Shown here: in pieces, positions 33,057-35,780 of the stretch
Numbering within the stretch: position 1 is the first letter of the stretch
Layout of the letters: every line of letters starts with the position of its first letter
Virus record (IMG/VR): IMGVR_UViG_3300032282_004479
Span: 1-35,780 of that record
DNA: 35,780 bases
Strand: one strand, 5' to 3'
Source: a virus
The notes under the pieces: generated by a model
What the model saw: the letters and a program-made list of their open reading frames with translations, nothing else
What the model was told of the DNA's origin: nothing
Database searches by the model: none
Translations under genes and position numbers: made by a program

Positions 33057-33072
33057 AGTGTTCGATGGACCA

Positions 33073-33513
33073 ATGACATATAAAGGTTATTTTAAACCAA
33101 AAAACCCAAAGAAATACAAAGGTGATCCTACGAATATTATTTATCGTTCTCGCTGGGAATGTGTTTTGATGGATAGATTTGATAAAGACCCGAATGTAAT
33201 TAGCTGGGGCTCTGAAGAGGTAATCATACCATACCGTTCTCCGATAGATAATAGAATCCATAGGTATTTTGTGGACTTTATTGCAACAATCATAAATAAA
33301 GATGGTATTAAAAAAACAGTATTGATTGAGGTAAAACCAGCAGCTCAGACTAAGCCACCAGTCGTCCAAAAAACAAAAAACAGACGATATATTACTGAGG
33401 TAATGACATGGGGCGTAAACGATGCTAAGTGGAAAGCTGCTAGAGAATACTGTTTAGATAAAGGTTGGGAATTTTTAATATTTACTGAAAAAGAATTAGG
33501 ATTGAAATTTTAA
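33073..33513 (+). CDS. 4: Head completion nuclease gp4
   Basis: A 146-residue protein (T4 gp4 is about 150). I choose ATG 33073 (MTYKGYFKPKNPKKYKGDP) because it aligns with T4 gp4 (MAYSGKWVPKN...KYRGDP); GTG at 33058 would add five residues. YRSRWE (24-29), WGSEE, IPYRSP, RYFVDF (64-69), VLIEVKP (83-89), VNDAKWKAA (115-123) are all gp4 blocks. E29, D68, E86 and K88 fit the E...D...ExK site of the TnsA-like nuclease fold. gp4 acts on the packaged head before tail joining. It overlaps the next gene by one base (TAATG). Confidence 0.9.
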   Translation: MTYKGYFKPKNPKKYKGDPTNIIYRSRWECVLMDRFDKDPNVISWGSEEVIIPYRSPIDNRIHRYFVDFIATIINKDGIKKTVLIEVKPAAQTKPPVVQKTKNRRYITEVMTWGVNDAKWKAAREYCLDKGWEFLIFTEKELGLKF

Positions 33514-34109: not shown

Positions 34110-34853
34110 ATGGCATTCAATATCAACGAATTTAAAGCAAAAGTTTCTGCTGAAGGCGGTATGCTCAAGTCGAATAGATTTTTTGTGCGTATCACTCCAC
34201 CAAACGGTATGTTAAATGGTACAGCAACAGTTGACGCCACAGGTGCAATCGTAGGAACTTCAAATGGTGGTGCAACAAAAACAGCTTCTATCATAGAATA
34301 CTTTGCTGAATCTTGTAGCCTTCCTGGTATATCATTACAGACATCTGAAATTAGAAGACAAGGTGTTGGTAATTTAGAAAAAACTGTATGGGGTGCTTCG
34401 TTCACGGATTTGGATATAACATTTCGTATCGATCAAAAGACACAGATCTGGAAATTTTTTAAAGACTGGGTGGAAATGATCTATGCCTTCGATATTAGCT
34501 CTGGTACTTTACATGAATTAGATTACAAAGATAATTTTGTAACAACAATAACTGTATTCGTGTATGCAGAAAATTTTCCTGATGAGCCAATCATCACTGT
34601 TGACTTTCAAGATGCATTTCCAATTTCATTACCAGACATATCATTGAATTGGGGAGCAGCAGATGTTATCAATATGCCAATCCGTTTCAATTATAGATCT
34701 TGGAATGTAAGACAAGATACAAATATTAATGTTACTTTACCAAGAGTACAACAGAGAGTTGATAGAGAAGTAAACCCATCAGACATTTATCTTGGTCCTT
34801 CTGAAAATGCAATTCAGAGCGATATAAGAGGATCTATGTTTATAAGATTTTAA
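34110..34853 (+). CDS. 54: Tail-tube-fold protein, probable baseplate tube initiator gp54
   Basis: A 247-residue protein. ATG follows GGTAGG and lies directly after the stop before it. The pattern NINEFKAKV...NRFFVRITPP (N-terminal strand), ESCSLPGISL (67-76), then TDLDITFRID-x-x-x-QIWKFFKDWVEMIY (99-126) and a final strand NMPIRFNYRSWNV is that of the T4 gp19 tube family, which includes gp54 and gp48. T4 gp19 has 163 residues and gp54 has 320, so length does not decide. Because gp48 is next door across the divergent promoter and gp26 follows, I favour gp54 over the main tube gp19. Main tube or a tube paralogue remains possible. Confidence 0.6.
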   Translation: MAFNINEFKAKVSAEGGMLKSNRFFVRITPPNGMLNGTATVDATGAIVGTSNGGATKTASIIEYFAESCSLPGISLQTSEIRRQGVGNLEKTVWGASFTDLDITFRIDQKTQIWKFFKDWVEMIYAFDISSGTLHELDYKDNFVTTITVFVYAENFPDEPIITVDFQDAFPISLPDISLNWGAADVINMPIRFNYRSWNVRQDTNINVTLPRVQQRVDREVNPSDIYLGPSENAIQSDIRGSMFIRF

Positions 34854-34872: not shown

Positions 34873-35586
34873 ATGGCATTACCTAAAATTATGTATCCGC
34901 AATTTGATATTCTGATACCTTCTAAAAATAAGAAAATGAAGTTTAGACAGTTACTAGTCAAAGAAGAAAAGATCCTTTTAACTGCAAAGGCTAGTAACGA
35001 AGAATCCGATATTTTAACAGCAATCAATCAGGTTGTACAAAATTGTGCTATTGATGATTCCTTTGATGTAAACAAAATTGCTGTATTCGACTTAGAATAT
35101 ATTTTCATCAAGCTTCGTGGTCTATCTATTTCAAATAGAGTTAATCTTACATTCAAAGACTTTGAAGACGAAAAGCTCTATGAATTTGAAGTCGATTTGG
35201 ATAAGATCAAATTAGATATTCCAAAAAATGTTGAAAGCAAAATTATGGTCAATGACAAGCTTGGTATTGTCATGAAGTATCCATCAGCCAGCATCTATTC
35301 AGATAAAGAGTTCTTTAAGAATAGCATGGATGATGCGACAGTTGAATTGGTCATACGTTGTATTGATAAAATTTTTGATGGTGATTCTGTGTATGATCCT
35401 ACTTTGTTCACGAGAGAAGAAGTATTAGAATTTTTAGATAGTTTGGATGTAAAAACATTCACAAAGATTAGTGATTATTTGTCTAACGTACCAAAGGTTA
35501 ACTATGAGATAAAGTATAAGAACTCTCTTGGTAATAATAGACAGATTGTTTTGAGTTCAATAAATGATTTTTTTACGTTGCGCTGA
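34873..35586 (+). CDS. 26: Baseplate hub assembly protein gp26
   Basis: A 237-residue protein (T4 gp26 is 208), start ATG 34873 after GGAG. PKIMYPQFDILIPSKNKKMK, then FRQLLVKEEKILLTAK, AINQVVQNCAID, FDLEYIFIKLRGLSISN and KDFEDEKLYEFEVDLDKIKL are the usual blocks of the T4 base plate protein family. In T4 it is needed for hub assembly; to my knowledge it was not located in the finished baseplate structure, which fits a chaperone role. Its end carries a seven-T slippery sequence in register (35568-35574) and the -1 frame continues into the gp51-like sequence, so two products are expected: 237 residues and a 293-residue fusion. Confidence 0.9.
   Translation: MALPKIMYPQFDILIPSKNKKMKFRQLLVKEEKILLTAKASNEESDILTAINQVVQNCAIDDSFDVNKIAVFDLEYIFIKLRGLSISNRVNLTFKDFEDEKLYEFEVDLDKIKLDIPKNVESKIMVNDKLGIVMKYPSASIYSDKEFFKNSMDDATVELVIRCIDKIFDGDSVYDPTLFTREEVLEFLDSLDVKTFTKISDYLSNVPKVNYEIKYKNSLGNNRQIVLSSINDFFTLR
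35568..35574 (+). promoter_or_regulatory. Candidate -1 ribosomal frameshift slippery site (T_TTT_TTT)
   Basis: Seven consecutive T's, read in the gp26 frame as GAT TTT TTT ACG, match the X_XXX_YYY heptamer with in-register codons. The -1 frame has TGA at 35565-35567 immediately upstream and no stop until 35751, so the overlapping frame opens exactly at this site. Slippage would join gp26 residues 1-234 to 59 codons ending in RQRNA. Confidence 0.65.
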
Positions 35587-35637
35587 GTCATAATACACTA
35601 GAGAACTATTACAATATGATGTTTGCTATGGTTCAGC
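35582..35637 (+). promoter_or_regulatory. Possible frameshift-stimulating stem downstream of the slippery site
   Basis: GCTGAGTC (35582-35589) can pair with GGTTCAGC (35630-35637) as eight base pairs, two of them G-U. The stem starts seven bases after the heptamer, the usual distance for stimulators. The 40-base loop has an inner TAATA/TATTA pairing (35591-35595 with 35607-35611). Confidence 0.4.
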
Positions 35638-35753
35638 ACCATAAATATTCTATAAAAGAAATTGAGGAAATGGTACCTTTTGAGCGTGATTTATATTTTC
35701 AATTGTTGATGAGCTATCTCAATAAACTAGAGGAAAGACAAAGAAATGCCTAA
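35616..35753 (+). CDS. Small gp51-like/chaperone T-domain frame, probably expressed as a frameshift extension of gp26
   Basis: The -1 frame relative to gp26. From ATG 35616 it gives 45 residues (MMFAMVQHHKYSIKEIEEMV, PFERDLYFQLLMSYLNKLEE); the frame is open upstream to 35568, and the preceding LENYYN looks like part of the same domain. The pattern of helix, HHKYS, E-x-x-E-x-x-PFERD-x-Y-x-x-x-L resembles the second (T) domain of tail assembly chaperones in other tailed phages. It may also correspond to the small gene following gp26 that is often called gp51 in T4-like marine phages. Independent translation from ATG is possible, but only a weak AGAGAA lies upstream. It overlaps the next gene by eight bases. 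Confidence 0.65.
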   Translation: MMFAMVQHHKYSIKEIEEMVPFERDLYFQLLMSYLNKLEERQRNA

Positions 35754-35780
35754 TTTTGGAACCATTGATCAAAACGCAGA
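35746..35780 (+). CDS. Start of a further gene (cut by window edge)
   Basis: ATG at 35746 opens a frame reading MPNFGTIDQNA to the window end. An AGAGGAAAGA site lies about 10 bases upstream, and the frame overlaps the gp51-like stop. By order (tube-fold protein, gp26, T-like domain) a tape measure or other hub gene would be expected next, but eleven residues are not enough to tell. Confidence 0.5.
   Translation, partial: MPNFGTIDQNA

Follow-up and report, generated by a model that had tools for sequence, protein, structure and literature searches.

We report that a gp26-family open reading frame (ORF) near the end of an uncultured viral sequence very probably yields both a short and a long tail assembly chaperone (TAC) by a -1 ribosomal slip at U_UUU_UUU, with a downstream RNA stem probably aiding. 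The sequence analyzed, here called the window, is the 35,780-nucleotide stretch covering positions 1 to 35,780 of IMG/VR record IMGVR_UViG_3300032282_004479. The window is a further example of a frameshift already proposed for T4-like phages, of which the downstream hairpin may be a new detail; the present analysis adds the breadth of conservation, a synonymous codon test, and a stem with a held-out check.

Slip site and predicted products

The relevant features, all on the plus strand, are as follows (basis in brackets).

34110..34853, +, tail tube protein gene, adjoining the gp26-family ORF upstream (PF23849, E=2.5e-10; phrog_45, E=2.7e-30)
34873..35586, +, gp26-family ORF, predicted short chaperone form (TAC-N), 237 aa (PF12322, phrog_150; AlphaFold)
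35565..35567, +, TGA in the -1 frame just 5' of the heptamer, shutting the -1 frame upstream (sequence; relatives)
35568..35574, +, slippery heptamer T_TTT_TTT in gp26 phase (homologue counts; synonymous test)
35568..35753, +, -1 frame with the gp51-like C-terminal domain (TAC-C) (phrog_634; homologues; predicted helical)
35582..35590, +, stem 5' arm, 9 bp, 7-nt spacer from the heptamer (pair counts, shuffles)
35584..35586, +, TGA, 0-frame stop of the short form, within the stem 5' arm (sequence)
35629..35637, +, stem 3' arm (pair counts, shuffles)
35746..35780, +, next gene, beginning only (ATG 35746 overlaps the TAC-C stop)

The 0 frame ends ...AAT GAT TTT TTT ACG TTG CGC TGA, the TGA starting 9 bases past the heptamer and ending 12 past it. 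In the -1 frame, 61 open codons follow the TGA at 35565-35567 up to the TAA at 35751-35753. The original prediction had placed the heptamer, the -1 TGA, the 61 codons, the TAA, and the gp26 stop at these positions, and all of them hold. The predicted fusion is 234 + 59 = 293 aa and would read ...INDFF followed by YVALSHNTLENYY... after the slip.

Profile searches matched the gp26-family ORF to PF12322 (E=8.6e-49) and to phrog_150 (baseplate hub, gp26; E=5.9e-54). The -1 peptide matched phrog_634, “baseplate hub assembly catalyst” (gp51; E=1.9e-22), and also the C-terminal part of the phrog_150 profile. The domain is kept in homologues. The gp51-like domain first proposed from the letters of the window is borne out.

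Under the proposed mechanism, most ribosomes would stop at the TGA at 35584-35586 and release a 237-aa gp26-like TAC-N, and a minority would slip by -1 at U_UUU_UUU to make a 293-aa protein joining TAC-N to the gp51-like TAC-C, probably helped by the stem-loop seven bases 3' of the heptamer. If the lambda G/GT analogy carries over, TAC-N should attach to the tape measure protein, and TAC-C should bring in tube or hub subunits during tail assembly. The sequence itself shows the slip site and how it is conserved, as well as the -1 domain, the stem, and the homology to T4 gp26 and gp51; we infer that slippage takes place, how efficient it is, what the stem does, and that the products act as chaperones.

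Conservation of the heptamer and the -1 frame

Loci were fetched from IMG/VR and GenBank using the window ORF and its family profile. Both frames were complete in 105 loci, 91 of which form the non-redundant set (<90% mutual identity). NNT_TTT_TTN stands at the 0-frame end in 91/91 non-redundant homologues, 0 to 3 codons before the stop; the seventh base of the site is T, C, A, or G, and the T_TTT_TT phase is unchanged. Of 10,593 codon positions elsewhere in these genes, just 2 have such a motif in phase. A -1 stop at the equivalent spot before the heptamer is also present in many relatives, and the sequence of the -1 domain is conserved across homologues. Another 310 loci, retrieved later by different queries, have the slip site in 309 cases; the sole exception (L168) has an ORF that ends before the site. 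The early stop of the L168 gp26 ORF is probably an indel or an assembly error.

Codon choice at the site is constrained. NNT_TTT stands at the terminal FF in all 46 homologues of <50% identity, with 17.3 expected from their own codon use; the summed log10 P of this synonymous test is -25, which ignores shared ancestry, and its P-values overstate independence. GC-rich phages retain the site, as in DLP6 (AAT TTT, with own codon use of ~0.1 and 0.04). The arrangement is thus far beyond chance, and a chance T run is ruled out by the synonymous codon test. Among the fetched relatives that carry the slip site, none has an in-frame short-plus-long fusion as its only product; T4-type phages have a pair of genes.

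Could the -1 domain instead be a separate small gene (gp51) with its own start, reached by reinitiation or internal initiation, the TTTTTTT merely encoding Phe-Phe? GenBank annotates it so in S-PM2, phiM12, DLP6, Cr30, and RHph_I1_9, where ATGs are located at the gp26 stop, and the -1 frame of the window itself has ATGs at 35616, the first and within the conserved domain, and at 35619. A start at either of these would, however, cut off the conserved LENYY motif, and the two ATGs are not conserved. Ahead of the conserved core, the -1 frame of the window has no start codon, as in most of its close relatives, and 57 of the 91 non-redundant homologues likewise lack ATG, GTG, or TTG from the upstream -1 stop to the core (to ~20 bases past the 0-frame stop). 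Cultured phages with a startless -1 frame include Synechococcus phage ACG-2014b and Aeromonas phage 65. Heptamer codon choice is also constrained beyond protein needs, and T4 gp51 carries the domain fused to a gp26-like domain. We therefore consider a separate gene very unlikely, and for the clade of the window we reject one with its own start, which is not conserved.

Other lineages differ: in a lenient count of the later set, a start codon was absent in 50 of 129 non-redundant members, and Cr30, phiM12, S-PM2, and DLP6 have an ATG near the gp26 stop, so the C domain could also be made alone there. The homologue comparison suggested in the original prediction gave a conserved heptamer, register, and -1 domain in several hundred relatives, many of them lacking a start codon altogether, and supports that prediction.

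Less probable still is that RNA polymerase, not the ribosome, joins the frames by slipping on the T run. The run in the window is seven Ts long, and transcripts with one extra U would likewise have the -1 frame open. On the other side, many homologues have only six Ts, the seventh base being C, A, or G; NNT_TTT_TTN keeps the phase for tRNA slippage; and the stem downstream, with its 7-nt spacer, is consistent with stimulation of the ribosome. Some sequencing technologies make errors at homopolymers, which would favor an indel in one truly continuous frame, but the arrangement recurs in isolate genomes and in hundreds of assemblies made independently, which refutes such an error and leaves it a negligible chance.

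Downstream stem and other RNA elements

In the clade of the window, a 9-bp stem (35582-35590 with 35629-35637) takes in the 0-frame stop. RNAalifold returned no consensus structure on alignment A4; we therefore counted the pairs of the stem itself and set them against synonymous shuffles, using a gapless alignment of 54 sequences and, as the null model, random recoding of the 3' arm with synonymous codons. Paired stem cells numbered 420/486 (86.4%), against 364.8±5.5 in the shuffles (maximum 385 in 2,000 shuffles). At least 8 stem pairs were formed in 40 sequences (16.6 expected from synonymous shuffles), and 18 cells carried double changes (6.3±2.1 in shuffles). Shifting the partner by 1 to 3 bases lowered pairing to 22 to 37%. 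Held-out sequences (n=43, <90% identity to the first set) gave 352/387 paired cells versus 294.4±4.9. The stem is thus kept beyond coding constraint in the clade of the window, held-out sequences included. The stem of the window itself is only modestly stable relative to shuffles (z of -0.85 and -1.3); given this and the RNAalifold result, a stimulating role is something that we infer for the stem.

Cyanophage-type relatives mostly lack the stem and have a purine-rich, Shine-Dalgarno (SD)-like run 8 to 11 bases upstream of the slip site. In an exploratory comparison, their anti-SD energy averaged -5.85, versus -4.29±0.26 in synonymous shuffles. On balance we favor a picture in which one chaperone family keeps an invariant slip site and each lineage has its own stimulator: a covarying 9-bp stem-loop overlapping both the 0-frame stop and -1 coding sequence in the clade of the window, and an SD-like purine run 8 to 11 bases upstream in cyanophage-type phages. 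With a constrained stem and a lineage-dependent SD-like element, stimulator evolution at a fixed slip site becomes testable.

Relation to T4 gp26 and gp51

T4 gp26 and gp51 both belong to PF12322, as does the window ORF, and match each other directly by BLASTP (E=2e-6). T4 gp26 aligns with the short form over its full length: the family profile covers it as far as the final residues, where the slip site lies and where the terminal stretches read ...FFTL and ...FFEL. T4 gp51 consists of the N domain and a C domain, the latter being the -1-frame domain of the window: phrog_634 matches T4 gp51 at residues 147-246 (E=1e-23), and hhalign of the window C domain against residues 206-244 gave E=9e-4. 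The same domain comparison did not find the C domain in T4 gp26. By homology, T4 gp26 and gp51 are paralogues, gp26 being the counterpart of the short product and gp51 that of the long product, and the two T4 genes therefore apparently correspond to the products that one gene would make here by -1 frameshifting. The proposal that gp26 and a gp51-like domain form the short/long chaperone pair agrees with this, as the extra C domain is carried by gp51 only.

Unlike the window, T4 has two separate genes on opposite strands and no frameshift; the gp26 and gp51 genes are also divergent in Aeromonas phage 31. RB43 (locus L114, 2501-3794) has gp51-like and gp26-like genes in tandem on one strand, unlike T4. 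In an N-domain tree, with an arbitrary root from which ancestral state and direction of change cannot be read, all frameshifting phages fall to the same side of a single branch, and the T4-type gp51s (long forms) group together. Frameshifting phages occur within Straboviridae (Vibrio VS1 [Schizotequatrovirus], Aeromonas 65, and Cronobacter S13), which suggests a single switch between the frameshifting and the two-gene state.

Comparison with known systems

Frameshifting is reportedly conserved in several T4-like groups, with genes 26 and 51 separate in T4, according to the abstract of the study by Vladimirov and colleagues. That study (Vladimirov, Gautam and Davidson, Virology 2022, doi 10.1016/j.virol.2021.11.003) identified the T4-like chaperone genes, per papers citing it. 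It is credited with polyT frameshift signals in the TAC-N genes of T4-like phages (PMC12846349), and PRFect (PMC10885494) takes from it that some T4-like phages have a short gene plus a longer fused gene and no frameshift. The doubt voiced with the original prediction, that such a frameshift might already have been described, was thus justified as far as these two citing papers go. As they present it, the T4-like system shares with the window the gene family, an N domain common to short and long forms, and a polyT -1 signal; differences from Vladimirov 2022 itself may lie in the uncultured clade of the window, in its startless C domain, and in the conserved stem.

G-T frameshifting has been described as widely conserved in long-tailed phages “except T4” (Atkins et al. 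2016, PMC5009743). The TACs of Vandenendeviridae/Andersonviridae (Pseudomonas phage Adele, PMC12846349) resemble the window in a -1 frameshift at a T-rich site ending TAC-N, often misannotated as a separate ORF, and differ in a GTTTTT motif and in phage family. Lambda G/GT (and P2 E/E') is alike in its short form and -1-frameshifted long form, its position after the tail tube gene, and its small C domain. It differs in its slippery sequence, which in lambda is GGGAAAG, and the window phage is a myovirus of the T4 superfamily. In the window family, the 0-frame stop is only 0 to 3 codons past the slip, unlike in lambda G/GT.

Sullivan et al. 2010 (PMC3037559) described cyanophage gp51 as lacking the first ~200 residues, with a length ~20% that of T4 gp51; a C domain reached by frameshift would explain why it was annotated as a fragment. 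An unannotated gap of ~165 to 190 nt after gp26 corresponds to the -1 domain in KU686210, KJ019049, KF156339, HQ634177, KJ019078, KY290955, and NC_028773 (loci L101-L105, L108, and L109), so part of the long chaperone is absent from those GenBank annotations. The frameshift would account for short or missing gp51 in cyanophage and several GenBank annotations.

Predicted structure and gene neighborhood

AlphaFold gave a mean pLDDT of 89.5 for the short form and 78.5 for the C domain, which it models as a short bundle of helices. A fold search of the N-domain model against the PDB gave no significant match; the HK97 tail assembly chaperone (2OB9) ranked 2 and 5, which, at E>1 and probability ≤0.33, is a hint only. 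The N-domain profile against PDB sequences gave chance hits only. The N-domain model matched predicted viral proteins, many of which carry baseplate hub or T4-like hub assembly annotations (E to 1.7e-18).

The gp26-family ORF is preceded by genes for the tail tube protein, a gp2-like DNA end protector, and a head-closure protein. The head-closure (gp4-like) ORF at 33058-33513 has a further match to PF08722 (TnsA-like endonuclease N-terminal family; E=2.2e-22). In one close relative (L006, 3874-6709), the gene after the chaperone encodes a holin-like protein of ~155 aa with three transmembrane segments (GTA_holin_3TM, E=1.4e-7). A long muralytic protein then follows, with glucosaminidase and VanY domains in L006, a VgrG3-like C domain in L014, and VanY in L016. 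Tape-measure matches downstream in relatives are through a peptidase domain only, and the wall-cutting domains just named may belong to the tape measure protein. The annotation of Cr30 places the tape measure protein two genes past the chaperone.
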